Assembly (NCBI GenBank): GCA_021162935.1
Contig: JAGGXR010000034.1
Location: 1-64,000 of the forward strand
Origin: Deltaproteobacteria bacterium
GTDB taxonomy: Bacteria > Myxococcota_A > Polyangia > HGW-17 > SLPX01
Direction: 5' to 3'
DNA: 64,000 nucleotides
Made by a program: the position numbers and the translations under genes
Shown: positions 1,073-53,490 of the stretch, piece by piece
Layout of the letters: each line of letters starts with the position of its first letter
Position numbering within the stretch: the first letter of the stretch is position 1
The notes under the pieces: generated by a model
Told to the model about the DNA's origin: nothing
The model's input: only the letters and a program-made list of their open reading frames with translations
Databases searched by the model: none

Positions 1073-1410
1073 CCAAGACGGCAGGGTCGGCATGTGTTCG
1101 TGCTTTGGGAAAACGTGGTGGTTCTTGCTGTCAGGATGACGGTTGTCCTTTCACGTGCCTACGGGCGAGTGGGTCCTCGAGTTTTCCTCTCAGATTTCTG
1201 AGGTCCAGACGCGACGATCGTCGGTTTCTTGACGTCGGACCGGATCGTTTCTTGACGAGATGCGCCTGTCAGATGCCTGGTGGTTCTTTCTCCAGTGGCC
1301 CGGAAATTGCTGATATACTCGAAGGTAATGCTGTTTTTAGGCTGGATGCCTGCACCGGCTCAATGGGCCGAGTGTGTGGGTGTGCACGAGTTTGGAGCAG
1401 GAGGTCTGTC
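1073..1410. other. Intergenic region, no gene seen
   Basis: This is the leader of the Cys-rich lipoprotein gene. It holds two copies of TTTCTTGACG about 26 bp apart (near 1222 and 1248), each containing a -35-like TTGACG, and a TATACT at about 1314. No pair has convincing -35/-10 spacing, so I do not call a promoter. Reading frames that cross this region lack protein-like composition. Confidence 0.4.
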
Positions 1411-9600: not shown

Positions 9601-11483
9601 ACGTGGATGTGGCCATTCCCGTGGCGGTCTACAACTATTCCTCCTCCGAGCAGGATGTGACCCTACAGCTCAGGCAGGATTCCTGGTTCACGCTCTTGGA
9701 TTCGAACACCAAGGACGTGGTGGTTCCCGCACAGTCTCTGCGGGCAACCTCGTTTGCCGTTCACGTGGTAGACGTGGGCCGCCACCCATTTCATGTGACC
9801 GCGACGAGTGCTGATTTCTCGGATGCGGTGGAAAAGCAGATTCTCGTGCGACCCAACGGCAAGGAATACCCAAAGACCTGCGGCGGCTTTTTGACGAGCG
9901 CGACGCCCCAGTCCTGTCAGGTCACCTTCCCGTCGGTTCGGGTGGATGGGGCCGATGAGCTCTTGGTCAAGATCTACATGTCCCAGGTGGGCCATGCGGT
10001 CGAAGGATTGGATTCCATGATCAGAGAGCCATATGGGTGTTTTGAACAAACCACGTCGGTGACGTGGCCGAATGTCTTGGTTTTGAAGTATCTGCGAGAC
10101 AATCATCTGACCAATCCAGGGATCGAACTCAAGGCTCGGCAGAACATCGCGCTGGGGTACCAACGCATGCTCACCTTCCATCATCCCGATTCGGGCGGGT
10201 TTTCCTGGTTTGGGGAAGACGCTGAGCACCTCGTCCTGACGGCCTATGGGCTGATGGAGATGACGGACATGGCCCAGGTCTACGACGTGGACCAGTCGAT
10301 TCTGGACGGGGCGGCTCGATTCATCGCCAATCGGCAGAAGAGTGATGGGTCCTGGACTCCAGACCAAGACAGGGGGTTTGGGATCGGTGAAACCGTGTCC
10401 ACGAGCACCTTCCAGACCACCACGTTTGCGGCCTGGGCGCTGACCCATTGCGGACTGCATCCGGCTGCCGTCGAAAGTGCCAAGCAGTACCTCTTGAGCA
10501 ATCAGAGCGAGGCGACCACCCTGTTCTCCAAGTCGCTCCTCGTTCGTTTCCTTACCGACTCTCCTCCTGCGGACTCAGCGATGCTATTTGATCTACTCGA
10601 GGATTTGGCGTCTGCTGCGGATCGGAATACAGCAGATGGCACAGCAGTTTGGACCACCGAGGGTTCCGGTTCGTTGTACGACCACGGAAAGTTGGCGAAC
10701 CTGGAGACCACGGCTCTGGCGGTGGCAGCCCTGTCGAATGCTCGGGTGCATTCTGAGTTGGTTCAGGATGGCATTGCATACCTGGTGGGTCAAAAGGATT
10801 CCTTGGGGAATCTGGGCACCCAGGCGACCGTGCTCATGCTCAAGGCCTTGTTGGATGCTCGTGGGCCGGACCAGGCCGTAGACGGTACCGTCTCGATTCT
10901 GCTCAACGATCAACCTGCGGCCCAGGTGACCATGACCCCGGAGACATCAGACGTGTTTCGGGTCGTGGACCTCAAGAATCTTTTGGCTGCGGACGACAAC
11001 AAGGTGGACCTCGTCTTTTCCGGTGATGGGAGACCAAGCTTCCAGGTCGTGGGCCTGTGGTACGTGCCCTGGGATCAGGTTCCTCAGGATGATCCGGGCC
11101 CGCTTTCCATCGACGTGTCGTACGACCGGACCGAATTGCAGGTCAACCAGACCATCACGGTCCAGGTCACCGTGCAGAACAACGAGACGGTTCTCATTCC
11201 CATGGTCATGCTCGACCTGGGCATCCCGCCCGGATTTGAGCCCATGCAAGAGGATCTGGATGCGCTGCGGACGAATGGCACCATCACGTCCTACGAGGTC
11301 ACCGACCGCCAGATCATCATGTACCTGAGTCATCTCGACGGTGGGCAACAGGTGCAATTCGACTATCGGATTCAGGCCACCATGGCCTTTTCCGGCGAGA
11401 GCCCAGGCTATCGCGTCTACGCCTACTACACGCCCGAGATGTCATCCTACCAGGCACCGATCGCCGTGACGGTTTCGGAGTAG
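6609..11483 (+). CDS. Alpha-2-macroglobulin-like thioester lipoprotein with a GspG-like insertion
   Basis: 1624 residues. The start at 6609 is preceded by GGAGGGG; upstream in-frame starts give a non-protein leader. The hydrophobic signal ends GWGSC, suggesting a lipid-modified Cys. Macroglobulin domains follow (for example LTTDKPIYQPEQTIHMRVLA and SVATDRPYYLPAQVVTGS). The thioester motif is PYGCFEQ, with Cys1144 and Gln1147 expected to form the internal thioester, followed by an alpha/alpha toroid-like thioester domain. A bait-like, Gly/Asp-rich stretch lies at ~875-918. Just before it, residues ~735-866 contain DPWGRPY (826-832) and FGPDERKGTEDDI (846-858), the signature of the calcium-binding C-terminal part of GspG-type pseudopilins. 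Bacterial homologues trap proteases in the envelope; many are paired with PBP1C, but no pbpC is adjacent here. The C-terminus has an Ig-like domain and no membrane anchor. Confidence 0.88.
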   Translation: MLYNSNRGWVETFRLGSVLIVVALGVGWGSCRRGLGIKLAVGESDILEAGSLTMKESQIQMAWQGDDLVVSYQVQSSQTGTINLDVVAWIVDHKQGGRSDPVTGYVQVVDGEGKSAFVFPGLGSRIDDRDMGDYVLRLAVVGLTSGQLLAHRALPHRKPDQSLEVFAQDSFEKDGTGVVRVVAHQAGAATPLAGVPVAVRLSQWDRSWSAAQGKTDARGELTLEFPVDATSLSNIDMRVVTSLGEEEIVSSAVRLKPRQNTRIVLTTDKPIYQPEQTIHMRVLALDGPSLLPMAQTDGLFEVFDSKERKVAKFAVYTNAYGIASATMKLGRVIDLGSYRVHAEVGVISTDRTIKVSRYALPRFRVSVATDRPYYLPAQVVTGSIQAEYFFGQKVAQAQVLLKAYTYEAGFTQFAELTLFTDDQGEASFSLLLPNTFFGTEFLQGNASLLIQATVTDAAGHAETSSRSLVVAPSDVLIFVVPEAGHVVPGVDNRFFVETVDPTGAPLPCNVSISAPGVDAVRANTDENGIDVVTISGLSRQATLTTHASCAGGVSADKSVSIQAGQGAELEGLVVRADRPTAVAGDRVPITILAPRAKDVVYLDVVHHGHVLSSKNVDVAQGVGSANLDVTPDMTGLLELRAYYVASSGVVIRNTRLLYVKHEDALSVDLSTDQEQYRPGQTAVLGIHVTDSSGRGAQAAVGLSVVDEAVYALTDFRPGLEKQFYDFESALLNPSYQVKGCSFEDLDRADQDDASREKADLYLATLNRDQAFYPVRWTLKGSVADMDHTVAIGAVARDATTLGDLASGRFSNVEGLQEALNAAALFDPWGRPYQAEATGSQLCLTSFGPDERKGTEDDIKAICASVSYKTVTSTSGSHDGAFHDGAAFGLDAGYVPHRDAGMPRDGGYPVDGSVSDGGSSSGPRLRKDFPETLYFDPAVITDSQGRATVQIPLADSITTWKVAAIANAATGGLGSTDHGILVFQPFFVEPDLPAYLLNDVDVAIPVAVYNYSSSEQDVTLQLRQDSWFTLLDSNTKDVVVPAQSLRATSFAVHVVDVGRHPFHVTATSADFSDAVEKQILVRPNGKEYPKTCGGFLTSATPQSCQVTFPSVRVDGADELLVKIYMSQVGHAVEGLDSMIREPYGCFEQTTSVTWPNVLVLKYLRDNHLTNPGIELKARQNIALGYQRMLTFHHPDSGGFSWFGEDAEHLVLTAYGLMEMTDMAQVYDVDQSILDGAARFIANRQKSDGSWTPDQDRGFGIGETVSTSTFQTTTFAAWALTHCGLHPAAVESAKQYLLSNQSEATTLFSKSLLVRFLTDSPPADSAMLFDLLEDLASAADRNTADGTAVWTTEGSGSLYDHGKLANLETTALAVAALSNARVHSELVQDGIAYLVGQKDSLGNLGTQATVLMLKALLDARGPDQAVDGTVSILLNDQPAAQVTMTPETSDVFRVVDLKNLLAADDNKVDLVFSGDGRPSFQVVGLWYVPWDQVPQDDPGPLSIDVSYDRTELQVNQTITVQVTVQNNETVLIPMVMLDLGIPPGFEPMQEDLDALRTNGTITSYEVTDRQIIMYLSHLDGGQQVQFDYRIQATMAFSGESPGYRVYAYYTPEMSSYQAPIAVTVSE

Positions 11484-14985: not shown

Positions 14986-17289
14986 ATGAAACGGCTTCAT
15001 GGTATCGTCATATTGGCGGTCTTTTCTTTGACCCTTGGGTTCGTGGGCGCATGCAGCGACGATGACAGCAGCAGCGGTCAAGTATGCGGCAACGACAAGA
15101 TCGAAGGCACCGAGCAGTGCGACGGCACGGACTTGGGCGGCAAGAACTGCACCGACGTGGGCAGCTTCACCGGCGGTCAACTCGGATGCACCCAGTACTG
15201 CACGTACGATACGTCGAACTGCACCGGCGGCGCCAACTGTGGCAACGGCACGGTGGATGCTGGCGAGGACTGTGACGGCACGAACCTGGACAGCAAGACC
15301 TGCGCCGACGCCGGCAAATTCGTGGGCGGCACGCTTTCCTGCAATGCGAACTGTCACTTTGACACGAGTCTGTGCCAGGCTGGTGAAAATTGCGGCAACG
15401 GTTTGGTGGATCAGGGCGAGGAGTGCGACAGCACGAACCTCGATAGCAAGACCTGCGCCGACGTGGGCGCCTTTGGTGGAGGGACCCTGTCCTGCGCTGG
15501 CGATTGCACCTTCGACACGACCCTGTGCGAAGCCAGCAACCCCTGCGGCAACGGCCTCATCGACCAAGGCGAAGAGTGCGATGGTACGAACCTGAACGAC
15601 ACGACCTGCGCCGACATTGGCACCTTCCAAAGCGGCGATCTTTCCTGTGCCGATGACTGCACCTTCATCACGACTGCATGCAGCACGGACCCCGATCCGT
15701 CCCAGCAGATTGCAGCGGCCCGCGCCACTGCGGACGGAACAGGACTGAGTCTGCCCATCGACGGTGCCGTGGTGACCATGACCGTTCCCGCCGTCGAGAC
15801 GTCGCCGGCCGGGTTCTTCATCCAGGCGGCCCAGACCGGCCCCGCCCTATTCGTTGCCGTGGACCCGGCGACTTTGAATCCCGTGCCGGTGGCGGGCGAC
15901 ACGGTGAGTTTCACCATTACTGGCATGGCCACCATCTACGGCCTGCGGCAGGCCACGGAACTGTCCAACTTCTCCGTGGACTCGTCGGGCTTCGGCGTCT
16001 CGACCCTGTATCAGGACGTGAACCAGGCGACCGACCTCGTCACAAACCTGGACGGATACGAAAGTGAAGTCATCAGTCTCTCGGCCACAGTCACCGACGA
16101 TTTTGCTTTTGCCGGGACCGGCTTCGTGTCGGCCACCATCGACAGTGCGGGCATGACCGGCGATCCGAATCTGTTCCTGCGGATGCCCGTCACCCTGCAG
16201 GATTCTTTGGACCTCGAAAATGGTTGCAGCCTGGATATCGTTGGAACGCCCATGTGGCGGTACAACACCGAGGCGCAGGTGGGGCTGTGGCATGCGCTCA
16301 ATGCCACGGTGACGAGTTGTCCCGCGCCCCAGGTGGTCTCGGCGACCGCCACTTCTTCCACCACGGTGGTCATTACGATGAATCGCATGATGGACGGCAC
16401 GAGCATCACGAATGCCGCCACGCAGATCACCTTCGACAATGGCCTCACCGCGAGCGCCGCCAGCGTATCCGGACGGACCATCACCGTGACCACTTCGGCT
16501 CAGACCGGTGGCACGAGCTATACGGTCACCGTGGCCAACAGCGTGAAGGACAGCATGGGCACGGGCGTGGACACGAACGCGAACAGCACCACGTTCCTGG
16601 GTTACGTGGTCCGGGCCGTGGTGATGATCAACGAGTTTAATGCGAATATCACCGGCGGTTGCGATCTGGTTGAGTTGCGCGTCGTTTCCGGCGGGAGCAT
16701 GGACGGCTACATGCTCAAGGAGCGCACGAGCAGACTCTTGACCTTCTCGGGCCTGCTCGTGGCCACCAACGACTACATCATCGTGCATTTCGACAAGAAC
16801 GACGCGTCCTGCAACCCATCGGGCGCAGACAACGAGACCACGTCGAAAAATCAGTACCCAATGGCCACCTACACGGCCAACATGGACACGGTTTGGGATT
16901 GGTACACCACCGATAACGGCATGACCCGCACGAACAACGTTTTGACCCTGTTGGACAACCAGGCTGAGATCATGGATGCGGTTCTCGCCTGTGATGCGAG
17001 CGACTCTGGCAGTTGCACGGGTTACAATTCAGCGGGCACCAGTGAGAGCGCTGCCGCCCCCGTAGCGGCGGCCAATCAGTGGGAGCAGTCGGGCGGCGGT
17101 GTGCCCGCCGGCGGTTTCGTGGACGTCGACTTCTGCCTGAATGCCGCCTACGACCTGGACGGTACGGGAACGGACCGGTCGGGCGAGTCCATTGGGAGGA
17201 ACAGCAACACCGACACGAACAAGGCGGGCGACTGGAGCCAAGGCGCCTCGACCTGGGGCATGAACAACGCCGGCCAGACCGACTTCTAG
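14986..17289 (+). CDS. Cys-rich lipoprotein with a lamin-tail-like C-terminal domain
   Basis: 767 residues from the ATG at 14986, with AAGGGAGA upstream. The signal ends GFVGAC, a good lipobox. Four repeats of ~46 residues follow (CGNG, D-x-GE-x-CDGTNL, TCAD-x-G-F, GG-x-LSC, CTFDT-x-C), each with six cysteines. Then come two Ig/beta-sandwich-like regions (~230-420; ~425-525, with a fibronectin/Big-like PQVVSATATSSTTVVITMNR) and, from ~530, a lamin-tail-like domain (VMINEFNANITGGCDLVELR, then LVATNDYIIVHFD). No enzyme motif is visible. Likely a surface-exposed adhesion or scaffold lipoprotein. It lies immediately upstream of the radical SAM trio on the same strand, separated by ~110 bp. Confidence 0.75.
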   Translation: MKRLHGIVILAVFSLTLGFVGACSDDDSSSGQVCGNDKIEGTEQCDGTDLGGKNCTDVGSFTGGQLGCTQYCTYDTSNCTGGANCGNGTVDAGEDCDGTNLDSKTCADAGKFVGGTLSCNANCHFDTSLCQAGENCGNGLVDQGEECDSTNLDSKTCADVGAFGGGTLSCAGDCTFDTTLCEASNPCGNGLIDQGEECDGTNLNDTTCADIGTFQSGDLSCADDCTFITTACSTDPDPSQQIAAARATADGTGLSLPIDGAVVTMTVPAVETSPAGFFIQAAQTGPALFVAVDPATLNPVPVAGDTVSFTITGMATIYGLRQATELSNFSVDSSGFGVSTLYQDVNQATDLVTNLDGYESEVISLSATVTDDFAFAGTGFVSATIDSAGMTGDPNLFLRMPVTLQDSLDLENGCSLDIVGTPMWRYNTEAQVGLWHALNATVTSCPAPQVVSATATSSTTVVITMNRMMDGTSITNAATQITFDNGLTASAASVSGRTITVTTSAQTGGTSYTVTVANSVKDSMGTGVDTNANSTTFLGYVVRAVVMINEFNANITGGCDLVELRVVSGGSMDGYMLKERTSRLLTFSGLLVATNDYIIVHFDKNDASCNPSGADNETTSKNQYPMATYTANMDTVWDWYTTDNGMTRTNNVLTLLDNQAEIMDAVLACDASDSGSCTGYNSAGTSESAAAPVAAANQWEQSGGGVPAGGFVDVDFCLNAAYDLDGTGTDRSGESIGRNSNTDTNKAGDWSQGASTWGMNNAGQTDF

Positions 17290-17398
17290 TCTCAGTCGGC
17301 TGATCAGAATCGATTTGCCATTTGGAAAACCGATCCATCCCGCCCTGACTTGAATCGAGCGTGCATCTCCGCCCTGATTTGGTACCATACTGCACGTG

Positions 17399-20098
17399 AT
17401 GCAATCCGAAGGCCCAACAGCGATCAAGGGGTGCGTGGCATTCGTGCACCTGCCTGCCCTGGTTCCCGACCCATTCGTGAACTATCCAACCCTGACGAGT
17501 CTCGGTCCCCTGACCGTTGCCGGATTTTTGGAATCGCGTGGGGTTACGGTTCGTTTTTTCGAGGCGCTCACTTCTGATGAACAGGACGGTGGCAAGGGGG
17601 GCGTCCGAACCGGTGGGAGGCGAACGGGCAACGACGTTCAGCCGACGATTCAGCCGGGCGCGGCCGGTCGGGTCGTGGGGCGCGGACCAAACCCTGAGAC
17701 TCTCGACGCGCTGTGTAATGGAGCGGACCTGGTGGTGCTGCCCGTGGATCTGTTCCGAGACCCCACTGGCTGGCTGGCCGACCGAGTCGAGCAGGTGGCG
17801 GCCCAGGCTCGACGTCATGAGGCGACCGTGGTGGTGGCGGACTGTTCCGTCGGCGGACAGGACTATGTGCCCCTGGATCCGGGCTTGGTGCTCGCATCAG
17901 TGCCGTCGGCTGACCTGTACCTGCGCGGCGAAGCGGAACTGGGGCTCCTCGATCTGCTCGTCGGGCGTTCCCCGGAGGATGTGGCCGGCTGCTTCTCACG
18001 GAGGCCAATCGAAACGGTGGGTCGCACCGATGCCGACGATCTGCAAGTCGTTGCCGGCGGCGCCGAGTCGGTCGGTTTGGAGCTGGTTGCAGGTGGCGGG
18101 GAGGCCTATGGACGCGAACTCGATTCGATGGATGACGGTGCGGAGCCGGCGTTTCATCTCCTGGATCTGGATCGGTTCTTTTCGGTGCAGCGCCTGGCTG
18201 CGGCGCATGACCTGATACCCGACTTCCACGGCACCGGTGCGGTGCTGCCCGTGCAGTCGTCTCGTGGCTGTCCGTTCCATTGTTCGTTTTGCGCAGGGTT
18301 GTCGAAGCGGTTTCGCACCTATTCGTTGCAGTCGATGGAGCGGCTTGTTCACGAATGGGAACTGCTCGGAGCAGACACACTGTTGTTCTTCGATGATGTG
18401 ATGAATCTGGATGAGGACCGGTTCCTGGCACTGTGCGGACTGTTGGAGGCGCGACCGCATCTGACCTGGACGGCAGTCAATGGCTTTCGTGCCGATCGGT
18501 TGGGGCGCGAGGCGATTCGAGCCTTTCACGGCAGCGGTGGGTTCGGCCTGAAGGTGTCGGCCGAGTCGGGAGACGATCGGGTCCTTGCAGATGTGATTGG
18601 CAAGAAGATGTTGGTGGACGCATCCCGGGCCGTGGCCCGCTTTGCAGCCGACGAATCAGTGCCGCTCCTCGTGCATTACGTGGTGGGGTTTCCGGGCGAA
18701 GACGCGGTGGCCATGAACCGGACCTTGCTCCTGGCGGCGGAACTGTTCGAGGAGCAGGGCGCCAGTCCCAGGCTCCAGTATGCCACGCCGATTCCGGGAA
18801 CGAGGCTCTTCGACCAGGTGCGATCCATGGGGTTGGTGGATCGGGCCATGAGTTCGGCGGACCTCGTGACCTGGTTCGTGCGCGGGCCGATTTTGGACCT
18901 GCCGGACCTGCCGGCTTCGATCCAGCGGCTGGCGGTGGACGCCTTTCGACTTCGTGTCCGCCAGTGGTCGGATCCCGTGCTTCTTCTGGATCCAACCTTT
19001 CGTTGCAACCAGTCCTGTCGGTTTTGCGCCGTGGAGCGAGACAGACTGGAGGAACCAGGCGAGGCAGACATCGAACAGGCCCTCGTTTGGGCGGCACGAA
19101 GGGGCGTGGGACGGGTGGACATCGGTGGTGGGGAGCCCACGCTCTATCCAGGTCTTGTCGGCCTCGTGGAGCAGGTCCTGCAGCTTGGGATGGACCCGAG
19201 TCTCGTGACGAACGGCAGGAGGTTGGCCTATTCCCGATACGCCGAGGAGTTGGTCCGGGCCGGCCTGCGGCGATTCGTGCTGTCCCTGTCCGGACACGAG
19301 GCCGACCTGCACGACGCCATTGCGCGAGCACCAGGCGCTTTCGACCAGGCAATGGCTGGCCTGGATAACCTGGTCCGTCTCGGCTGGCCGGCCGGCGCAC
19401 AGTTGGATGGTGGGCCGTTGGATCCTGAGCGGTTGGGCAATGGCTGGCCGGCCGGCGGGCGATTGGCCGATCGTTCCGATGGAAATCGGATCTCCCTGGC
19501 GCTCAATTTGAACGTCTGTCCCGCGAATCTCCGCAGGCTTTCCGCGATGGTTTCGTTCTTCGCGGGACGATTTCCGTTGGATGCGATCAATCTTCAGGTC
19601 GTGCTGCCACTGGGCGCAGGGGCTCGACCCGGCGAGTGGTTCGAGGACCTGGACGAGGTGGCCGAGATGGTCGGGGAGGCGGCCGACATGGCTGGTACGG
19701 TGCCCGTGACCCTGCACAATCTGCCTCCCTGTTTCCTGCCCGATCGGCTTGCTCTGATGCTCAGAGATGGGTACAAGGGGGCTCGTTTCCAATGGCGGTC
19801 CGGGTTGCCGGTCCGATTCACCGAGGTGACCGGGACGGTGCTGGAATACGGGGACGCCTGTGCGTCCTGCCCGCTACGAATCCTGTGTCCAGGGGTCCAC
19901 AGACAGGTGTTGGAGCAGGACGACCGGTTGCGCCAACGCGTCGAGGTCCTCGTGGACGCGATCCGGGCGGGAGGCGCGACCATCGATCGAGCCCTGGATG
20001 TGATGCGATTGGGAGTCGATGCCGTCGATGGAGCCCGGGATGCGATGCGATCGGGAGGTCGCAAGGAGGGGCGCTCCGAGGAAGGTGGGCGCTCGTAG
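17399..20098 (+). CDS. Fusion protein with B12-binding-like domain and two radical SAM domains
   Basis: 899 residues; GTG at 17396 and ATG at 17399 are both possible and no strong ribosome-binding site is seen. Residues ~10-195 resemble the Rossmann-type B12-binding domain of class B radical SAM enzymes (LTSLGPLTVAGFLESRG..., DLYLRGEAELGLLDLL) but lack the DxHxxG cobalamin ligand. The first radical SAM core has Cys291, 295 and 298 (CPFHCSFC). The second has Cys536, 540 and 543 (CNQSCRFC) with GGGEPTLYP. Near the end, CASCPLRILC (Cys821, 824, 830) matches a CxxCx5C motif shared with both downstream genes, suggesting an auxiliary Fe-S cluster. The C-terminal ~45 residues are degenerate and repeat-rich. 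Radical SAM enzymes cleave S-adenosylmethionine to start radical chemistry; substrate unknown. A fusion of a B12-type and a MoaA/SPASM-type enzyme is unusual. Confidence 0.8.
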   Translation: MQSEGPTAIKGCVAFVHLPALVPDPFVNYPTLTSLGPLTVAGFLESRGVTVRFFEALTSDEQDGGKGGVRTGGRRTGNDVQPTIQPGAAGRVVGRGPNPETLDALCNGADLVVLPVDLFRDPTGWLADRVEQVAAQARRHEATVVVADCSVGGQDYVPLDPGLVLASVPSADLYLRGEAELGLLDLLVGRSPEDVAGCFSRRPIETVGRTDADDLQVVAGGAESVGLELVAGGGEAYGRELDSMDDGAEPAFHLLDLDRFFSVQRLAAAHDLIPDFHGTGAVLPVQSSRGCPFHCSFCAGLSKRFRTYSLQSMERLVHEWELLGADTLLFFDDVMNLDEDRFLALCGLLEARPHLTWTAVNGFRADRLGREAIRAFHGSGGFGLKVSAESGDDRVLADVIGKKMLVDASRAVARFAADESVPLLVHYVVGFPGEDAVAMNRTLLLAAELFEEQGASPRLQYATPIPGTRLFDQVRSMGLVDRAMSSADLVTWFVRGPILDLPDLPASIQRLAVDAFRLRVRQWSDPVLLLDPTFRCNQSCRFCAVERDRLEEPGEADIEQALVWAARRGVGRVDIGGGEPTLYPGLVGLVEQVLQLGMDPSLVTNGRRLAYSRYAEELVRAGLRRFVLSLSGHEADLHDAIARAPGAFDQAMAGLDNLVRLGWPAGAQLDGGPLDPERLGNGWPAGGRLADRSDGNRISLALNLNVCPANLRRLSAMVSFFAGRFPLDAINLQVVLPLGAGARPGEWFEDLDEVAEMVGEAADMAGTVPVTLHNLPPCFLPDRLALMLRDGYKGARFQWRSGLPVRFTEVTGTVLEYGDACASCPLRILCPGVHRQVLEQDDRLRQRVEVLVDAIRAGGATIDRALDVMRLGVDAVDGARDAMRSGGRKEGRSEEGGRS

Positions 20099-20190
20099 GT
20101 GGGCGGCACGTCGGAGGCAGATGAGCGCTCCTGGGTAGGTGCGCGAGGAGATGGGATGCCGAGACGCTTGGGCGGAACAGAGAAGCAGCG

Positions 20191-21417
20191 GTGAAACACA
20201 AGAAGCACAAGCGATCTTCGTTGCGCGTGGTGTCCAGGACATCCAAGAAGTCCTCTGGGACGTCGTCTCAACCGACTGCGCCATCCAAAGCGCCGGTGTT
20301 CCAGGAGTCCGAGAGGAGTGACCCATCGGCGCGTCAGGCCGTCCTGGAAAGCGCGGCGTCATTGTCGTCGGACGGACCTTTGTCGTCGAGGCGACCCACA
20401 GCCGATGGTCGGGCTCGGGCTGCGGCCGGGCGGCAGATCGAGATCAACTTGGGCAAGGCCTGCAACAACGCCTGCCGGTTCTGCTCGAACGGTGCGGTGC
20501 CTCCCGAGGAGCAGGCGCTGGTGCCCATCGAGACCATTTCCGAAGAGATCAGGAAGGCAGCGTGGGAGGGCTATGACGCGCTCGGTTTTTTGGGCGGTGA
20601 GCCCACGATCCGTAAGGACCTGCCCACGATCATCGAAATGGGCAGGCGGGCCGGTTTCGGGCGGATCGCCCTCTGCACGAACGGAAGGCGGCTTCGTTCA
20701 CCGGAGCTGCTGTCCAACCTCATCGATGCGGGGCTCACTCGAGTGACCCTATCCATCCATAGTCACCTGCCCAGGATCGAGAACTGGCTCTGCGGTCGGT
20801 CTTCGGCCTACGAGCAAAAAATGGAAGCCATCGATCATCTCGTGGCGGCTCTTGCACGAGGACGACTGCCCCATGGTTTTGCCCTCAACACCTGCATCCA
20901 CGGGATGAACTGCGAACAGTTGCCAGACCTTGCCGCGTTTTTCCGGGCCAGGGGCGTGGGGGAGATTCGGTTCAACCTGGTTCGCCCGGAGCATTTGGCG
21001 GTGGCAGACCCTCGCCTCATTCCACGATTGCAGCGGGTCACCCGGGCGATTCTACGGACTATTTACTGGAACGAGGGCCGCGGATTCATGCGGATCACCT
21101 TCAGTGATGTGCCCCTTTGTGCCTATCCGAGTCCTTTGCTCGCATCCCCCGAACTGCTGCTTCGATACAGCGGTGAATCATGGGACCTCGACACCCAAGT
21201 CGTGGTTCAACGGGGCGAGGCGGGTCGCGACGAGTTTCGCTGGCAGGATCGCCGCAAGGAACGGCTCAAGATCCATACCGATCGGTGCGGATCCTGCGCC
21301 GCAGTGGATCGGTGCGAAGGGCCCTGGATCCGTTCCGTGGAGCTGCACGGCGACGGTGACCTCCACCCGCTTCGGGCCGATCCCTTCCTGGGAAAATCGA
21401 CCCGTGGGCCTCGGTAG
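20191..21417 (+). CDS. Radical SAM protein with C-terminal CxxCx5C motif
   Basis: 408 residues from a GTG at 20191; the ribosome-binding site is weak and later GTG starts are possible because the first ~75 residues are basic, Ser/Pro-rich and non-conserved-looking. The core begins at ~82 (QIEINLGKACNNACRFC; Cys91, 95, 98). GGEPTIRKDLP binds the SAM amino group in this fold. The strand LTRVTLSIHSH is nearly the same as in the next gene. The C-terminal CGSCAAVDRC (Cys366, 369, 375) followed by EGPWIRSVELHG matches the ending of the third enzyme. Cytoplasmic, substrate unknown. It follows the fusion protein by 92 bp and precedes the next gene by 10 bp, so all three are probably co-transcribed. 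Confidence 0.8.
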   Translation: MKHKKHKRSSLRVVSRTSKKSSGTSSQPTAPSKAPVFQESERSDPSARQAVLESAASLSSDGPLSSRRPTADGRARAAAGRQIEINLGKACNNACRFCSNGAVPPEEQALVPIETISEEIRKAAWEGYDALGFLGGEPTIRKDLPTIIEMGRRAGFGRIALCTNGRRLRSPELLSNLIDAGLTRVTLSIHSHLPRIENWLCGRSSAYEQKMEAIDHLVAALARGRLPHGFALNTCIHGMNCEQLPDLAAFFRARGVGEIRFNLVRPEHLAVADPRLIPRLQRVTRAILRTIYWNEGRGFMRITFSDVPLCAYPSPLLASPELLLRYSGESWDLDTQVVVQRGEAGRDEFRWQDRRKERLKIHTDRCGSCAAVDRCEGPWIRSVELHGDGDLHPLRADPFLGKSTRGPR

Positions 21418-21427
21418 GTAGGGCATT

Positions 21428-22318
21428 ATGGATCGTCGCGTCCGACTGCACGTCATGGTCTCGCATCGTTGCTCGAATCGCTGCGTCTTTTGCCTCGAAG
21501 ACGAGCAGGAGCGCGCAGATGCCGATTTCGGCGACCCGTTCGCCATTCTGGAAGCCTTCGAATATCGAGACACCGTCCTGTTTACCTGCGGGGAACCAAC
21601 GTTGAGCCCGATTCTCGATGACCTGGTTCGCAGGGCCGACGAACTGGGGTACCACGAGGTGGATCTGGTGACGAATGGTCGGCTCCTGGCGGATGGGAGG
21701 CGGGCGACACGCCTGGTTCAGGCAGGCTTGACGGGGGTGACCGTCTCCATCCATTCGCATCGCCCGGAGTTGCACAACCAATTGACGAGGCGGCGTTCCT
21801 TTCTCCAGACCCTCGGCGGCCTAAGGAACATGCTGGCGTTGAGGGGAGCGGCGGGGAGCGCGGATCTGGTGGTCCGTACGAGTACCGTGGCCTGCCGCCC
21901 GAATCTCGAAGACCTGCCGGAGACGATTCTGTTCTTGGATCGCCTCGGCGTGGACGTGATCAACGTGAACTTCGTGGAGCCGGCAGGGCGTGCCGCTGCG
22001 CAGTTCGACGACCTGGTGCCTCGCATGTCCGACGTGGCCCGTTCCTTGGATGGCGTGCGGGATCGGCTTTCCTGTCGCGAATTGGTGGTCACCGGCCTGC
22101 CTGCCTGCCTGCTGCGTCATGGTGCGGAATCAGGAACGGCAATGGCCGGTATGCGCGAGGTGATCTGGATGTGGCAGGGCGGCACATTCGTCCAGTTGGT
22201 TCCGAACAGGACGCAGGAATACGGCCCCATGTGCGATACCTGTCCTGCCCGGCCATCTTGCGATGGCGTCTGGATACGGTACGTGGAGCGATTCGGCTGG
22301 GACGAGTTCGGCTGGTGA
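21428..22318 (+). CDS. Radical SAM protein, compact paralogue with CxxCx5C tail
   Basis: 296 residues. The radical SAM cysteines sit at the very start (HRCSNRCVFC; Cys15, 19, 22). The GGE-type motif is degenerate: LFTCGEPTLSP has Cys in place of the first Gly. LTGVTVSIHSHRPELHNQL is shared with the preceding gene. The C-terminal CDTCPARPSC (Cys269, 272, 278) leads to DGVWIRYVERFGWDEFGW, an ending typical of MoaA/SPASM-like proteins with a shortened auxiliary-cluster domain. Last gene of the trio; the spacing of 10 bp from the previous stop indicates co-translation. No small peptide precursor gene was found between or directly after the three genes. Confidence 0.8.
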   Translation: MDRRVRLHVMVSHRCSNRCVFCLEDEQERADADFGDPFAILEAFEYRDTVLFTCGEPTLSPILDDLVRRADELGYHEVDLVTNGRLLADGRRATRLVQAGLTGVTVSIHSHRPELHNQLTRRRSFLQTLGGLRNMLALRGAAGSADLVVRTSTVACRPNLEDLPETILFLDRLGVDVINVNFVEPAGRAAAQFDDLVPRMSDVARSLDGVRDRLSCRELVVTGLPACLLRHGAESGTAMAGMREVIWMWQGGTFVQLVPNRTQEYGPMCDTCPARPSCDGVWIRYVERFGWDEFGW

Positions 22319-22352
22319 GAGGGGCGGCTCGTTGTCCTCGCTGTGCTTGCGG

Positions 22353-22379
22353 TGGACAGGAAACAGGCTTCGGTATATT
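22353..22379 (+). promoter_or_regulatory. Weak promoter candidate upstream of the RCC1 lipoprotein gene
   Basis: TGGACA at 22353-22358 (5 of 6) and TATATT at 22374-22379 (5 of 6). The spacer is only 15 bp, which is suboptimal, and the predicted leader to 22577 is ~190 nt. Confidence 0.3.
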
Positions 22380-22576
22380 TTCAACTGAGGAGGCTGTTCA
22401 AACCAGCCACCTAAACGCGCGTGACGGTCATGTTGGGGGCTGCTGATTTCGTGATAGGACGATGCCATCGACATGTTGCAGTCAGATGGATTCGGAGACC
22501 GAAAAGGACGGACAGGACGAGATGGATGAAACGAGACCGATTTGATTCGATGAGGACCCGATGCGATGGAGGCGAT

Positions 22577-23570
22577 ATGGTGGGCAATCGAGCCAATGGT
22601 GGGATGTGGGGCCGTGACCGGTGGCTGGCGGCCGTGGTGGCCGGGGCCACCGGGCTGGTCGGCCTCGTTGTCGTGGCTGGCCTGGCCGGATGTCGGGCCA
22701 AGCCGGTCCGGGGACGATAGACGATACATGTGTGACCCGGGTAAGCCAGGTACCTGCCCTGCTGGGTGGTACTGCCGTCCCACGGATTCGGCTGACATGA
22801 CCTACCGATGTTTTTCACATGAAGCGGCCATCTGCGGGGACGGAGTCCGGCAGGAAGGAGATGCCTGTGACAGCGCCGACCTGGGCGGAACGATCTGCGA
22901 GTCGCTCGGGTTTGCGGGCGGGATGCTGCTCTGCACGGCCGACTGCCACTTCGACGAGAAGGGCTGCTTGAGCGAGCTATGCGGAAACGCGAAGGTGGAG
23001 GGAAGCGAGTCGTGCGACGGCACGGACCTGGGGGGGCAGATCTGTACAGGCCTCAACCAACGAGGGGGCACGCTCGCCTGCGAGGACCACTGTCCGTTCG
23101 ACCAGAGCGGTTGTCTGCTCAACTACTCGGATTTGGTGGCAGCCGGCAGCGTGTCCTGCGTGGTTCGATACGATGGGATGGCCTGGTGCGGCGGGCAGAG
23201 CGACTTGGGTCAGCTCGGCACGGGGAACACGCAGGGATCGACCCAGCCGGTGCAGGTCCAGAATGTGCGGAACGTGACGAACGTGTCCTGCGACGGAGGG
23301 TTCACCTGTGCGGTGGCCCAGGATCGGCGGGTGTTTTGCTGGGGAGATAATTCTGAAGGACAACTCGGAGACGGGAGCGGACAGAATCAGTTGTTGCCCG
23401 TGGAGGTGCAGATGGCCGCAGGTGCCATCGAGCTTGCCACTGGGGACCAACATGCCTGCGTGTTGACCATGGACGCGCGACTGTTGTGCTGGGGGCGTAA
23501 CGATCAGGAGCAGTTCATGACGAGTTCGGTTGGTTCCAGCTCGACGCCGGTCCTGGTGACGTTGCCGTGA
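22577..23570 (+). pseudogene. RCC1-repeat Cys-rich lipoprotein gene with a +1 frameshift after the lipobox
   Basis: The ATG at 22577 has GGAGG at 22568-22572 and opens a good lipoprotein signal (LVGLVVVAGLAGC), but that frame stops at 22720. The rest of the protein lies one base to the right: MCDPGKPGTCPAGWYC, two Cys-rich repeats (CGDGVRQEGDACDSADLGG, then CGNAKVEGSESCDGTDLGG), then about three RCC1-like blades (MAWCGGQSDLGQLGTGN, VFCWGDNSEGQLGDGS, LLCWGRNDQEQF). Removing one G from the GGGG run at about 22708-22711 joins the two into one continuous lipoprotein of ~330 residues. The RCC1 part is short for a seven-bladed propeller. Either a sequencing error, a real inactivating or phase-variable indel, or programmed frameshifting; I cannot separate these. 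Confidence 0.7.
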
Positions 23571-23653
23571 TGTTCATTGTTTGGCATACCATCTTGCGCT
23601 GATGTGGGGATGGATGGGCACGCCGGCCGCTGTGCCCCATGAGGAGAAATGTG

Positions 23654-25720
23654 ATGGCTGAGGACAAACAGGCTGCGTTGGTTCGTTGGCTGGCAGCGCG
23701 GTTCATGGAGGAGAGCGGGATCGACGTGTCGAATGACTCGTCGGCAATGAATCGTCTCGACGGCGCCGCCAGGACCGCTCTGTCCGAATTGAACCATTGG
23801 GGCGAGACCACGGTGAACCTGCCTTTCTTGAGCAGCGATGCGGGTGGACCCAAGCATCTCAGGGTTGCGATCAAGGATTCGGACCTGGACGGAATTTTGG
23901 CTGAATCCATGGCATCGGCAGGCCCTGATCGGAACGCAGCGTTTCCCGGTCGGCCCGGTCGTGACGCGGGGGCTTCACCTGTCCAGGATGGAGCCTCCAA
24001 CGCAGATGCGCCTTCAGTCATGCAGTTTGGATTCGAGCCGGTCGATGACGATGATCCCTTTGCGCATGAGGTCACCCCAGCCGATGAAGTGACGCCTTCC
24101 TGGGAGAAGGAAGCAAAGCAGGCCAAGGGGCATGCGATGCCTTCGGCGGACGAGGTGCGTCATCGCACTGGTCAGACCAAACGAGGGACGGCCAGAAAAC
24201 GCCGCAGCCGGAAGGAGCGGGCTTCGAGCGATCCATGGGGGCGGAGCCCCGATGATTGGAATGCAAAGGAAAGCGATCGCAAGCTCGATACGCTGTCTCT
24301 TGTGCTCGTCTATTCGGGTGTGGTGAGCGGCCTGGGTGCGCTGGGGATGGCCATTTACTGGTCATGGCCGGTTTGGGTGGGCCACGGGAGTCGGTCTTTG
24401 AGCGTTCGACTTGTCGTCGTGTTTGCTGCGCTCGCTTTGGACGGCATGACCATGACTTTCATTGCCGCCAGAAGGTGGACGCACACGGGGTATGATTACC
24501 TGGGCTTCGATACCTGGTTTCCCATGGCCATGTCGGCGGTTCCTTTTGTTGGTTTTTTCATGGCGCTCTATTATGCCATTCGTCTCCTGGTAGGACGATT
24601 GGCAGCCGCCTCCATCACGACTTCCTATGGCCCCGGGAGTTCTTCGAGGAATACGTATCCGGCAACCAACATCGGCATCACCGGAATTCCCGGGGGGCTG
24701 GTCCTGTTGGCCTTTGCCTTGATCCATGCCGTGGTCGTCTACAGGGCGCGTTCACACTTGATTCCAGGTTATCATCATGCTCCTGCGACCAAGTCCACGT
24801 CTGTGCGGGGTGTTCCCCGTGGGGCGGCCGCAAAGGCCTCACGGAGGACCTGCCCCAAGTCGGGCGAGGTCGTCGTCAAGAACGAGACCATCAGGGTGGA
24901 CAGACGCAATCGATACTTTCCCTTGCTGCAGGGTTGTCGGTTGCGCCTGAAGATGTGTCGCTTGGTGGGATCCAAGCCATTGGCGTTGCGTGGTACGGGG
25001 CGGCTCGTCATGGAAGGTGGACGTTTGGCCATGAACCCCGATGGATTGCTGGTCGAAGATCATGTGTGGGTCACTCTTCGAGGGGTGAACGTGAAGGCAA
25101 AGGACACCGCTATTCATGCTTCTGGTCAGGCCGTCGTGGTGCTCGATGGTGGTCGAGTGGCCGGCGCGACGGCTGTTTCTGCCACAGACCAGGCAGTGAT
25201 TTTGTATCACGACGTGAATCTTCGTGGTCGTTGGAAGCGAAGCGGCACGGCCATGATTTTGGCGTTTCACCAGGGGCAGGATTTGGACAAGGTCCTGGCC
25301 AAGGCTCGGCATTTCGGTGTTGCGTTGAAACGATATCGAGAAGATGCCTGCAACGGCATCATGGCATGCTACGAAAAGGCCGACTACTTCGGTGCGGTGG
25401 CCTCTCGGGTGACGTTGCACTTTGGATCGGACGGGGCAGTCGATCGTTCGAAGATGGAGTTGAAGCACGCTGACAAGCTCGTTCGATCCTGCGTCCAGAA
25501 GTTGGTGGGCGCCAAGAAGTTGTCGCATTTCGTAGGCCCCGTGGGCACTGCTCGTTGCACGTTCGTTGGGCGGCTGAGTTCCGGTACGCGGGTCATGAAC
25601 AGCCACAAGGAGTACCGGCCCGATAGTTGGCCGGGTGATCTTTTTGGGGGCCGGAACATGCGTCGCAACAAGAGGCGCCGCAGGCACGGCAGCAGCCATG
25701 GACATAGGAGACATCGGTGA
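23654..25720 (+). CDS. Four-helix membrane protein with AgmX/PglI-like C-terminal domain
   Basis: 688 residues from the ATG at 23654, with GAGGAGA at 23641-23647. Residues 1-205 are cytoplasmic, acidic then basic (RKRRSRKERA). Four hydrophobic helices follow at ~214-238, 252-278, 286-316 and 340-365. The exported part has a short-repeat beta-helix-like stretch (LRGTGRLVMEGGRLAM..., HASGQAVVVLDGGRVAGAT) and then a domain with paired Cys (NGIMACYEKADYFGAVASRV, CVQKLVGAKKLS, GTARCTFVGRL) that resembles the AgmX/PglI C-terminal domain of myxobacterial gliding and TonB-like proteins. The tail is very basic. Its TGA overlaps the start of the protease gene, so the two are probably coupled. Confidence 0.5.
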   Translation: MAEDKQAALVRWLAARFMEESGIDVSNDSSAMNRLDGAARTALSELNHWGETTVNLPFLSSDAGGPKHLRVAIKDSDLDGILAESMASAGPDRNAAFPGRPGRDAGASPVQDGASNADAPSVMQFGFEPVDDDDPFAHEVTPADEVTPSWEKEAKQAKGHAMPSADEVRHRTGQTKRGTARKRRSRKERASSDPWGRSPDDWNAKESDRKLDTLSLVLVYSGVVSGLGALGMAIYWSWPVWVGHGSRSLSVRLVVVFAALALDGMTMTFIAARRWTHTGYDYLGFDTWFPMAMSAVPFVGFFMALYYAIRLLVGRLAAASITTSYGPGSSSRNTYPATNIGITGIPGGLVLLAFALIHAVVVYRARSHLIPGYHHAPATKSTSVRGVPRGAAAKASRRTCPKSGEVVVKNETIRVDRRNRYFPLLQGCRLRLKMCRLVGSKPLALRGTGRLVMEGGRLAMNPDGLLVEDHVWVTLRGVNVKAKDTAIHASGQAVVVLDGGRVAGATAVSATDQAVILYHDVNLRGRWKRSGTAMILAFHQGQDLDKVLAKARHFGVALKRYREDACNGIMACYEKADYFGAVASRVTLHFGSDGAVDRSKMELKHADKLVRSCVQKLVGAKKLSHFVGPVGTARCTFVGRLSSGTRVMNSHKEYRPDSWPGDLFGGRNMRRNKRRRRHGSSHGHRRHR

Positions 25721-28700
25721 TGAGATCCTGGAGAGTCGTTGAAAAGAGACCTCGACCGTCCGTTGTCTCGGCGACCGTTTGGCCGGCTGGGTTGGGAACT
25801 GTCGTGCTGGCAGTCTTGGCCACGTCGGTTGTGGTTGGCCCCTGTCAGGTTCATGCCAGGCCTGGCCCGCGCAGCCACGGCGACCATTGGCGGGTGCGTT
25901 CCATCGTGAAGCTGGAGGGGGCGTGTCTGGCCCGGTATCGCGCGGGTCTTTCTGGGTATGGATGGCCCGAGCGCCGGCTCAGGAGTCTGGATGGAAAGCC
26001 AGGGAATTTGGTGTCGCCTCCTGGTCGCGCCGGAATGCGACCAGTGGGACGCCTTGACCCGGACGGCCCGAACAGCCGGCGCTATCTTGCCTTGTTGGAC
26101 AAACGTCGGTCCGCGTTCGTGGCGGAACTCCATCGTGTCCTGCCGGGCGCCAAGGTGGTCTATGAGTTCCGTCTCCTCTTCAACGGCGTGGTGGTCGAGA
26201 CGGAGGCCCATCGACATGGCGTGCTTCGGGCGCTGCCGTTCGTCGAGTGGGTGTCGAGTACGGATCGGATCCAGTATCGACCCACCCTCGATCGGTCTGT
26301 CCCCATGATCGGTGCGCCCGACTACTGGGATGCCACCGGCGGTCAGGCCGAGGCAGGAGTCGGGATCAAGGTGGCGGTGATCGACTCGGGGATCGATATG
26401 AACAATCCATTCTTCGATCCATCGGAGTTCTACTTTCCTCTTGGGTACCCCATGGGGGCCACCACCGTGACCACGGAAAAGGTCATTGCATCACGGGTCT
26501 ACCTGAGGCCTGACGACCCAGTGGACACGTCGAAGGATGAGCCGATTCCCATCGACCACTGGGGCCACGGATCGCACTGCGCCGGAATCATCGGCGGTGT
26601 GGCGGGGACCGTGTTCGACCTGGGAGGAACGCAGTCGCGGGTCAGTGGCGTCGCGCCTGGCTGTTGGCTCATGGCCTACAAGGTGTTCTACACGTCCCTG
26701 TCGGGTCAGCCAGGCGCCGCATCGCCCGAACTCATGGCCGCGTTCGAAGACGCGGTGGCGGACGGGGCGGACGTGATCAGTAATTCTTGGGGCGGCCCCG
26801 ACGTATTCGGTAGCATGGATCCATCGCTCGACGTGTACCGCGCTGCGGTGGAGGCAGGCTGCGTGGTCGTGTTCGCGGCGGGAAACGACGGCCCCGGCGA
26901 GGGGAGCACATCGTCACCAGGCATGGACCCACTGTTCATCACGGTCGGGGCCACGTTTACGGGCCGGCTGTTCACGAATTACCTGGAGGTCACTGGGCCT
27001 GTGCCCGTTCCCTCGACGTATCGAGTGACCTCCATGGTGGTGGGAAACATCAGCGCGAGCTGGCATCGAGACGTTGGGCCCGCGCCATTGCGTTCGTCTC
27101 ATTTGGTCGACGGTGGCTCGAACGAGGATGGGTGCCAGGCCTTTTCCGCTGGGGCGTTCGACGGTGCCATTGGATTGGTTCTCCGTGGCAACTGTTCGTT
27201 CACGGACAAGGCGACTCATCTGGCGGACGCAGGAGCCATTGCCGCGGTGATCCAGGACAACAAACCGGGAGAGGTAGCCTTGGTGATGGAGGGCGACCAG
27301 GTGTCCATCCCCGCTGTCATGGTGACCTACGAAGATGGCAACCGGCTGCGCACCTGGATGGAAGCGCACGCAGCCGCCACGGCCGCCCTTCGGACCGGAC
27401 TGGTGCCCTACGACGTGCCGGATCAGACAGACGCGGTGGTGAGCTTTTCGTCCATGGGACCGACCGCCTGGGCTCATCTCAAGCCTGAAATCGTGGCGCC
27501 GGGAGCCCTCATCCTTTCCGCTGGGGCCGCCGCGGTAGGGCACAGTTCACCTGTCTGGGAACTCAAGTCTGGGACGTCCATGGCGACCCCGCACGTGGCT
27601 GGTGCGGCGGCGTTGGTGGTTCGCGTCCATCCGTCGTGGGGACATCGGGCCATCAAGTCGGCCCTGGTGAACCAGGCCAAACAGAGCGGCATCCACTCAT
27701 GGACCGGGCAGGGCAGAGCGGGTACCCTGGAACTGGGAGGTGGCCGGCTCGACTTGGGTGGCCTGTCCCATGTGACCATGCTCGCGTTTCCCTCGGTGCT
27801 CGATCTCGGTGAAGTGGAAGAGTCTGGGACGTTGGACGCCACGGTGCAACTCCAACTCGTGGATCCGGATCAGGATGGTTCGGCCCTGGTGACCCTGTCC
27901 TGGGACCCTTCGGATGCGGCTCTGCCGTTCGATCCTCCTTCCCAATCAGTGGTTTCCTTCGATGCTTCGGGCCTTGGCGATGTCCATGTCCAGGTTGCCG
28001 TGCCAACCGGGACGCCGTTGGGTGATCATTCCGGATCCCTTGTCATCGTGGGCGACGACGTCGAGTGGGCGCACGTACCCTACCTCCTGCGCGTCACCGC
28101 GCCGGTGGCCTCCAAGGACCTTCTGATCGTGGACATGTCGTTTGCTGCGGACAACAACACGGTGGATCCCGTGAATGTGTACGAGGAGGCGGCCCGGGAT
28201 GCAGAGTTGTCGTATGACGTGGCGCCCACAGGGCAACTCGCCGTCTGTCCCACGCTTGCCGTGTTGATGCGGTATCGGGCGTTGCTCGTGCTCACCGGTG
28301 ACGACCAGTGGGTGCATGGTACCTACAAAGGGCGCGGCACCCTGGACCGGCTGTCCACGTATTTGCTGCGAGGCGGGTCGGTGATTGTGGCTGGTCAGGG
28401 CCCCCTGCGTTCTTCGTCCCATGATCGCTTCACCGCCCTTGTTGGGACGGGGACGAGTAGCGGCATGCCCCTCTATGATGACTCCACCGGCGGTCTTTTG
28501 CATCTCGACGAGTATCGCGTCACGGTCAAGGGTTTGCCTGATCTGGTCACCGCGGACCTGATGCTCGATCCTGGTTCCGGTCTGGGGGACCTGCAGCTCC
28601 TGGGTGAATTGGCTCAGACCGTGTCCGGAGACGTGACGGAGCCATGGCTGGCGGATCCTTGGTCGCGGCCCGTGCTGCGGCTGACTGGGGGCAACTTCGA

Positions 28701-29370
28701 GGGCGCTGGGAACGTCGCGATGGTATACGATCCCTACGCATTCTATGGAGAGGATCGGCTCGCCGAGGCGCATCGGCATCGAGCAGTCGTGCTCGGATTC
28801 GGACTCGAAATCGTGAAGGACCCCACCCCTCTGGCCGACGGCACGCCTGCTCCTGGGAGTCGAGCCGAACTGCTCAGTCGTGCTTTTGCTTGGGCCACGG
28901 ATCGGACGTCGCTGGATGTGATCGTGGAGCAGGATCTGGACGATCCCTTGACCGTCCAGGTGACCTGTCAGGCCGCTGCCACGAACTCGGATCTGGCCAC
29001 CTATGAGTTTGATTTTGGAGACGGCGCGGACGTGGTTTTCGGGGCCGGGGCGCAGGTCCGGCACCGGTACCCACGCTACGGCGCATTCCCCTTGCAGGTG
29101 ATCGCCCGCAGCGATCTTGGGTCGGCTGCCATCGATCGCGAGTCGGTCCTCGTGCAGCCGATGAGCGAACGATCGGACGCTGGTCTGTCCGATGGGGGAC
29201 ACCTACCTGGGTCGGACGGCGGCCCAGATGGAGGACCTGAGGTTGATCCGCCTGGTCCGGGTGGCTGCTCGTGCCACGTGGGGCCATCGTCTCCGGCCCG
29301 GTCTCCCTGGCTTCCCGCGCTGTTCGTCCTGCTCGTCTCGGGCCTGTGGTTTGCGAGACGAAAGCAGTAG
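25720..29370 (+). CDS. Secreted subtilisin-like serine protease with PA, PKD and MYXO-CTERM segments
   Basis: 1216 residues; AGGAG lies at 25706-25710 and a GTG at 25717 is the alternative start. A signal peptide (~1-45) is followed by an inhibitor-I9-like propeptide (VVYEFRLLFNGVVVETEAHR). The S8 catalytic triad is intact: Asp222 (AVIDSGID), His283 (GHGSHCAGI) and Ser620 (SGTSMATPHVAGAAA), with NDGPGEG near the oxyanion Asn. The long gap between His and Ser holds a PA domain (~465-560, GAIGLVLRGNCSFTDKATHL), as in lactocepin- or cucumisin-like enzymes. A PKD-like domain (EFDFGDGADV...) sits near ~1095-1150. The end is GGCSCHV, a hydrophobic helix and ARRKQ, a MYXO-CTERM sorting signal, so the mature protease is likely anchored at the outer surface. 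Confidence 0.9.
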   Translation: MRSWRVVEKRPRPSVVSATVWPAGLGTVVLAVLATSVVVGPCQVHARPGPRSHGDHWRVRSIVKLEGACLARYRAGLSGYGWPERRLRSLDGKPGNLVSPPGRAGMRPVGRLDPDGPNSRRYLALLDKRRSAFVAELHRVLPGAKVVYEFRLLFNGVVVETEAHRHGVLRALPFVEWVSSTDRIQYRPTLDRSVPMIGAPDYWDATGGQAEAGVGIKVAVIDSGIDMNNPFFDPSEFYFPLGYPMGATTVTTEKVIASRVYLRPDDPVDTSKDEPIPIDHWGHGSHCAGIIGGVAGTVFDLGGTQSRVSGVAPGCWLMAYKVFYTSLSGQPGAASPELMAAFEDAVADGADVISNSWGGPDVFGSMDPSLDVYRAAVEAGCVVVFAAGNDGPGEGSTSSPGMDPLFITVGATFTGRLFTNYLEVTGPVPVPSTYRVTSMVVGNISASWHRDVGPAPLRSSHLVDGGSNEDGCQAFSAGAFDGAIGLVLRGNCSFTDKATHLADAGAIAAVIQDNKPGEVALVMEGDQVSIPAVMVTYEDGNRLRTWMEAHAAATAALRTGLVPYDVPDQTDAVVSFSSMGPTAWAHLKPEIVAPGALILSAGAAAVGHSSPVWELKSGTSMATPHVAGAAALVVRVHPSWGHRAIKSALVNQAKQSGIHSWTGQGRAGTLELGGGRLDLGGLSHVTMLAFPSVLDLGEVEESGTLDATVQLQLVDPDQDGSALVTLSWDPSDAALPFDPPSQSVVSFDASGLGDVHVQVAVPTGTPLGDHSGSLVIVGDDVEWAHVPYLLRVTAPVASKDLLIVDMSFAADNNTVDPVNVYEEAARDAELSYDVAPTGQLAVCPTLAVLMRYRALLVLTGDDQWVHGTYKGRGTLDRLSTYLLRGGSVIVAGQGPLRSSSHDRFTALVGTGTSSGMPLYDDSTGGLLHLDEYRVTVKGLPDLVTADLMLDPGSGLGDLQLLGELAQTVSGDVTEPWLADPWSRPVLRLTGGNFEGAGNVAMVYDPYAFYGEDRLAEAHRHRAVVLGFGLEIVKDPTPLADGTPAPGSRAELLSRAFAWATDRTSLDVIVEQDLDDPLTVQVTCQAAATNSDLATYEFDFGDGADVVFGAGAQVRHRYPRYGAFPLQVIARSDLGSAAIDRESVLVQPMSERSDAGLSDGGHLPGSDGGPDGGPEVDPPGPGGCSCHVGPSSPARSPWLPALFVLLVSGLWFARRKQ

Positions 29371-42733: not shown

Positions 42734-42995
42734 CATCCCGTGTTGGGCGGGATTGGCATTCACTGCTATGATGAAACTATTTTTTTCGGGAAGAGGCTGG
42801 TTGTGGCCACGTAGGATGAACGCTGGCTGGTAGGATCCACGGAAAGGGTCGGGAATCATGGACGCCGACGATATGCGGGAGAAGGGAAATTCTTTACAAT
42901 TGCGTTGTTTTCGCAAAGAGTAACATCTCATATGGCGGGTGACCGGGGTCGCCCAATGACGCATCCGTGAGGTGCAAGGGAGGGAGTGCTCCTCC

Positions 42996-49983: not shown

Positions 49984-49996
49984 GGAAAGGGCTCAG

Positions 49997-53477: not shown

Positions 53478-53490
53478 GGAAGGGAGCGTA

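Follow-up and report, generated by a model that had tools for sequence, protein, structure and literature searches.

Genome analyses led to the prediction and naming of His-Xaa-Ser (Hxs) systems years ago; the described Hxs core has two radical S-adenosylmethionine (SAM) enzymes. HxsB and HxsC have been named only as predicted maturases (PMC9062424). Our literature search found nothing on HxsC4, HxsA4, the Hxs product and its chemistry, or a multi-enzyme arrangement, which is weak evidence of novelty given that most subscription journals were outside the search. Here we analyze three consecutive radical SAM genes, denoted A, B, and C, in a window of 64 kb, the whole stretch of DNA under study (positions 1 to 64,000 of contig JAGGXR010000034.1, assembly GCA_021162935.1, Deltaproteobacteria bacterium), located on contig C5 of a 5.13 Mb genome in 168 contigs (G000). 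We conclude that A, B, and C are probably accessory radical SAM enzymes of an Hxs system of the HxsA4 type and would help modify the HxsA4 peptide in trans; co-occurrence, gene linkage, and homology point to action on this peptide.

Genes A (17396..20098; 900 amino acids, aa), B (20191..21417), and C (21428..22318; 296 aa) are all on the plus strand, separated by gaps of 92 and 10 bases, and probably form one transcription unit. The length of B is about 330-408 aa, its start being uncertain, with the first ~78 residues lacking a counterpart in relatives. As the original prediction held, the trio carries four radical SAM cores, two in A and one each in B and C. The matches to the Pfam radical SAM family PF04055 are all far above the gathering score of 29.5 bits: 109.7 bits for A (two stretches), 82.3 for B, and 51.8 for C. 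The common CxxCx5C ending was likewise confirmed near the C-terminus of each protein, with 69 residues following the motif in A. The proposed shared VSIHSH-type strand is present in B (LSIHSH) and C (VSIHSH) but not in A, which has LSLSGH.

The closest named relatives of the trio are HxsC (NCBIfam TIGR03977) and HxsC4 (NF038332), which share the radical SAM core and are the best or near-best NCBIfam matches of B, C, and the second half of A; for C, the best match is HxsC4. All three proteins fall below the curated cut-offs of 500 bits for HxsC4 (about 160 bits for C, 99.3 for B, and 79.8 for A) and 267.9 bits for HxsC (70.4, 42.6, and 62 bits, respectively), and are therefore described here as HxsC-like accessory enzymes. 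In the phylogenetic tree, C and its ortholog from genome G013 form the sister group of the true HxsC4 clade (support 94), B belongs to a clade of its own with 10 members (support 99), and the second half of A falls within a clade formed by 24 rows of the same fusion (support 99). The SkfB sactipeptide, PqqE, SynChlorMet, and GeoRSP systems also employ auxiliary-cluster radical SAM enzymes, some with several per locus, but C scores lower with these than with HxsC4, and no matching peptide or partner genes were seen.

The genome that contains the window encodes an HxsA4 precursor on contig C17 (7497-7955, minus strand), which scores 89.9 bits with NF038313 (cut-off 55) and consists of a twin-arginine-like signal with RRDFLSSSSLLLL, a linker, and a C-terminal core of the form ...AQHCS(HGS)nW. 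HxsB (C161:13535-15013; TIGR03978, 532.6 bits, cut-off 370) and HxsD (C161:12766-13218; TIGR03976, 56.4 bits, cut-off 50) are encoded side by side. With HxsA4, HxsB, and HxsD all over the curated cut-offs, an Hxs system is present in this genome. Contigs C27, C76, C100, and C103 encode additional HxsC-like radical SAM proteins, and several of these proteins belong to clades whose other members cluster with Hxs genes in relatives. The Hxs enzyme set is thus present but scattered. The likeness to the HxsA4/HxsB/HxsC4/HxsD variant extends to the sister position of C to HxsC4 and to the clustering of A-type enzymes with Hxs genes in relatives, whereas the dispersal of the gene set, the failure of the trio to reach the HxsC4 and HxsC cut-offs, and the presence of about ten or more radical SAM enzymes, one of them a fusion, set the present system apart. 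The original prediction could not match the trio to a known pathway; it corresponds to the Hxs systems, which have names in NCBIfam but are not yet understood.

The location of the trio on a different contig from HxsA4, HxsB, and HxsD would also fit a former set of Hxs paralogs that now serves an unrelated pathway. However, other family members are dispersed too, on the four contigs listed above, and the core Hxs genes are without exception intact, with scores above the cut-offs, so that we consider such repurposing improbable. As for a peptide encoded within or beside the trio, this possibility was rejected: there is no convincing small open reading frame (ORF) in the gaps and no HxS repeat in any frame of the 64 kb window.

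The association of the trio family with HxsA4 was assessed in 96 related genomes and in a phylum-scale sample of 379 genomes. Matches to the A, B, and C queries are nearly all-or-none: about 30 of the 96 relatives encode the family, mostly in many copies, and the rest have no matches at the threshold used; with the B query alone, the family was found in 29 genomes. The DNA pattern of the His-Gly-Ser repeat was detected in 28 of the 96 genomes, including 24 of the 25 that encode an A-type enzyme. The repeat peptide varies remarkably little: its form is H[CAG]S(HGS)n, and nearly every copy ends in W. Of the four repeat-only genomes of this sample, three look spurious; the pattern matches rejected as precursors are those of G037, with His-Gly-Trp codons, of G051, with His-Gly-Arg codons, and of G072. 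In the sample of 379 genomes, HxsA4 was detected at E<=1e-13 in 111, and all 111 also encode the C family (E<=1e-15); another 33 genomes have the C family without HxsA4, and 235 have neither. When the HxsA4 threshold is relaxed to E<=1e-9, 122 genomes have both, 3 only HxsA4, 22 only the radical SAM family, and 232 neither. The A-type fusion was found in 80 of the 379 genomes, 77 of which also encode HxsA4 (E<=1e-9). The original prediction had allowed for peptide-modifying enzymes with an unseen peptide, and this alternative gains support from the nearly complete co-occurrence of the family with HxsA4, encoded on another contig.

Linkage in relatives points in the same direction. A C-family enzyme is directly beside HxsA4 in many genomes (12 were tabulated, mostly at a distance of less than 300 bases), and the three HxsA4-linked enzymes that were tested are true HxsC4 proteins (620, 576, and 595 bits). 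A-type genes are located within 30 kb of HxsA4 in 14 genomes, and Hxs core genes occur near A-type genes in relatives such as G254, G028, G075, and G050. In G254, a single contig of 10.3 Mb, genes assigned by position and motif to HxsC4, HxsA4, HxsB, an HxsD-like protein, and HxsD occupy 418.2-421.9 kb, and the A-type gene is at 444.9 kb, with about ten other radical SAM genes in the surrounding 37 kb. More generally, gene maps of the family regions of relatives, obtained with a codon-usage ORF caller, reveal clusters in which radical SAM genes number up to about a dozen. A conserved gene for a non-radical-SAM protein of 139-181 aa lies near the family in 12 genomes; the copy that was tested is HxsD (TIGR03976), and its neighboring genes encode HxsB (TIGR03978, 606 bits), a protein of the HxsD-like family NF038315, and a peptide with a C-terminal His-Gly-Ser repeat.

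Parts of the trio itself recur as well. A, B, and C are found together in G013, with 44-51% identity; an A-type gene is followed by a B gene with a 4-base overlap in G002 and G005; and in G097, a genome of another class, ~480 bases separate A from C, at a locus on contig C70 known from search matches alone, the ORF caller having returned no genes there. A search of genome contigs with the B protein yielded only one weak Geobacteraceae locus, in a collection from which near relatives were possibly excluded.

The relatives' Hxs clusters contain additional recurrent genes. A conserved protein of ~190 aa with a twin-arginine-like signal is encoded within the Hxs clusters of G028 (41800-43109) and in matching places in G036, G050, G067, and G075; the same clusters also encode relatives of this protein that are 225-331 aa long and share a conserved CC motif. 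Of all these proteins, the two that were tested have no NCBIfam match. G013 has several HxsA4 genes on different contigs (C242, C398, C468, and C558) and the most family radical SAM enzymes of the genomes analyzed. Proteins distantly resembling component 1 of nitrogenase or protochlorophyllide reductase recur beside the radical SAM clusters in G016, G033, G013, and G002; one such protein tested had its best match to BchB (E 2e-6), and one example is L042:11089-12348. By eye, the region of G254 at 413-450 kb also encodes further radical SAM enzymes outside the HxsC-like family.

Several observations weigh against the assignment of the trio to the HxsA4 system. None of the Hxs core genes is in the 64 kb window, the cores being on contigs C17 and C161, and the link is therefore in trans. 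The HxsC4 score of C, 159.7 bits, is far under the cut-off, and B is restricted to a few lineages. The search with the C query counts any family member, not only C orthologs. Of the 22 genomes with the C family only (HxsA4 E<=1e-9), 11 have strong matches; several of these genomes are incomplete, and G042 holds repeats but scored low. The genomes are kin, so the Fisher p-value of 2e-66 for the counts at the stricter thresholds, like other such values, overstates independence. There are about ten or more radical SAM paralogs per genome, some of which may serve other substrates, and no reason is evident for a His-Gly-Ser repeat to require such a large number of enzymes. With respect to kinship, in the five bacterial families of mixed state (f10, f14, f15, f17, and f18), the family by B query and the repeats agree in 34 of 35 genomes, which argues that the co-occurrence does not result from shared ancestry only.

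The active-site motifs of the trio are conserved among the aligned relatives. In A, the first radical SAM motif is CPFHCSFC (residues 292-299; 18269..18292), with C292, C296, and C299 invariant in the alignment of 23 sequences of A relatives, and the second is CNQSCRFC (residues 537-544; 19004..19027), at least 90% conserved in the same sequences. B and C have a single motif each, CNNACRFC (residues 91-98; 20461..20484) and CSNRCVFC (residues 15-22; 21470..21493), in which the cysteines are invariant. The CxxCx5C tails are CASCPLRILC in A (residues 822-831; 19859..19888), CGSCAAVDRC in B (residues 366-375; 21286..21315), and CDTCPARPSC in C (residues 269-278; 22232..22261). Beside the three cysteines of the tail, a fourth, in an upstream PxC, is invariant in both alignments. 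The invariant positions thus comprise C779, C822, C825, and C831 among the A relatives and, in C numbering, C15, C19, C22, C227, C269, C272, and C278 among the 25 sequences of B and C relatives. This invariance indicates that the tail is a conserved feature and not a chance occurrence. The full SPASM pattern CxxCx5CxxxC is absent from the trio; judging from the conserved positions, the four cysteines of PxC and CxxCx5C are probably the ligands of one auxiliary Fe-S (iron-sulfur) cluster in each of A, B, and C.

AlphaFold2 predicted C to be a radical SAM barrel (pLDDT 88, pTM 0.88) and A to consist of two linked radical SAM units (pLDDT 83, pTM 0.85), an N-terminal cobalamin-type half and an HxsC-like half with the auxiliary-cluster tail. 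AprD4 carries a degenerate cobalamin domain. The N-terminal half of A is nearest to this enzyme both in sequence (19% identity; 76.2 bits, with the NF033070 cut-off of 500 not reached) and in fold (6fd2, TMt 0.70), followed by TokK, MgmA, and TsrM, and similarly combines a degenerate cobalamin-type domain with a radical SAM barrel; unlike AprD4, A carries the additional HxsC-like half. No B12-binding Pfam match and no recognizable B12 motif were found in the N-terminal half, and the candidate assignment as a true cobalamin-binding methyltransferase was rejected, with AprD4 as the nearest relative.

Neither predicted structure fixes the substrate. The fold of the N-terminal half of A, closest to that of the sugar diol-dehydratase AprD4, and the solved structures nearest to C, namely tetraether synthase, DesII, MoaA, and BlsE beside the peptide maturase SkfB, would be compatible with a trio that belongs to the Hxs enzyme set but has as its substrate not the peptide but a cofactor or small molecule, for example, a sugar, a lipid, or a tailoring group, that accompanies the Hxs product or is joined to it. 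The G254 cluster (413-450 kb), where lookalikes of dioxygenases, a sugar epimerase, and a glycosyltransferase were recognized by eye, fits this possibility as well. Nevertheless, we consider it unlikely: HxsC and HxsC4, the nearest named relatives of B, C, and the second half of A, are filed as peptide maturases, and HxsC4 adjoins the peptide gene.

The original prediction placed the trio between two Cys-rich lipoproteins and proposed these as its substrate. The upstream gene (14986 (ATG)..17289, plus strand) indeed encodes a lipoprotein with the lipobox VGAC, four six-Cys CGNx repeats, and a Big_5 domain (PF13205); its best match to the Myxococcota repeat TIGR02232 scores 16.4 bits, under the cut-off of 20.8. 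The downstream gene (22566..23570, plus strand) encodes an RCC1-repeat protein (PF00415, 75 bits) with two Cys-rich repeats, whereas the signal peptide and lipobox VVVAGLAGC are in a different frame, in an ORF at 22421-22720 that ends at a stop. The downstream protein would be a lipoprotein only through a frameshift or an error in the sequence; a misjudged start is another option.

Modification of these exported proteins by the trio, for example, through thioether links at the six-Cys repeats, is suggested by the gene order in the window, and auxiliary-cluster radical SAM enzymes often act near Cys. In the vicinity of 131 family enzymes from 26 genomes, 30 of the 332 genes within three genes of the enzymes are Cys-rich (9.0%), compared with 19 of 304 (6.3%) in background stretches from five of those genomes (p=0.23). 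When the comparison, then a small one, is limited to the matched five genomes, there is a weak trend toward more Cys-rich neighbors (10 of 82, 12%, vs 19 of 304, 6%; p=0.095). A Cys-rich gene directly adjoins only 19 of the 131 enzymes; most members of the family thus occur without such a neighbor, an outcome that the original prediction had itself named as speaking against it. The TIGR02232 repeat is over the cut-off in 86 of the 96 related genomes, most of which lack the trio's family. Because the enrichment is not significant and the repeats abound without the family, a functional link between the trio and the Cys-rich genes is not supported. Moreover, the CGNG repeats of exported proteins are more simply explained by disulfides. 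We find it very improbable that these proteins are the substrate and judge both to be outside the system, although a weak association may exist; the Cys-rich genes beside the trio are probably just common neighbors in these bacteria.

Under the assignment of the trio to the HxsA4 system, A, B, and C would most likely act in trans, at about the time of export or earlier, together with HxsB and the other HxsC-like enzymes, to modify the HxsA4 core. In each enzyme, cleavage of S-adenosylmethionine at the CxxxCxxC cluster would generate the 5'-deoxyadenosyl radical, and the auxiliary cluster would accept an electron or bind the peptide. The His, Gly, or Ser positions of the repeat would then be modified, and A, with its second, AprD4-like radical SAM domain, may perform two steps.

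Elsewhere in the window, the ORF at 931-4938 is extremely Cys-rich, with 284 Cys among its 1335 aa and dozens of CxxDCGxC repeats, and 6609-11483 encodes a bacterial alpha-2-macroglobulin in which bait, TED, and receptor domains were recognized (PF07703, PF07678, and PF07677). At the start of the 693 aa protein encoded at 23639-25720, no more than ~80 residues correspond to the DnaK ATPase domain (PF00012, profile positions 227-302); the remainder of this protein is unrelated sequence with apparent membrane segments. It is followed by a subtilase (25717-29370) in which PA and PKD domains are accompanied by a MYXO-CTERM sorting signal of borderline score (19.5 bits, cut-off 20). At 48856-57390, there is a row of MoxR AAA ATPase, VWA, and BatD genes, resembling a Bat-like operon.

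A broader scenario, which we put forward tentatively and with less than even confidence, is a phylum-wide assembly line of ~10-14 radical SAM enzymes, including HxsB, HxsC4, and the two-domain fusion, that makes a heavily modified product of new chemistry from the strictly conserved, exported HCS(HGS)nW peptide, with the trio as a dispersed sub-operon. At any rate, an unnamed, many-enzyme radical SAM family is now tied to HxsA4 by near-complete co-occurrence across the phylum. With a concrete short substrate, HCS(HGS)nW, and a defined list of enzymes, the question becomes directly testable, and should a single repeat peptide prove to be the substrate of several radical SAM enzymes, the pathway would be unusually rich in enzymes for a peptide.

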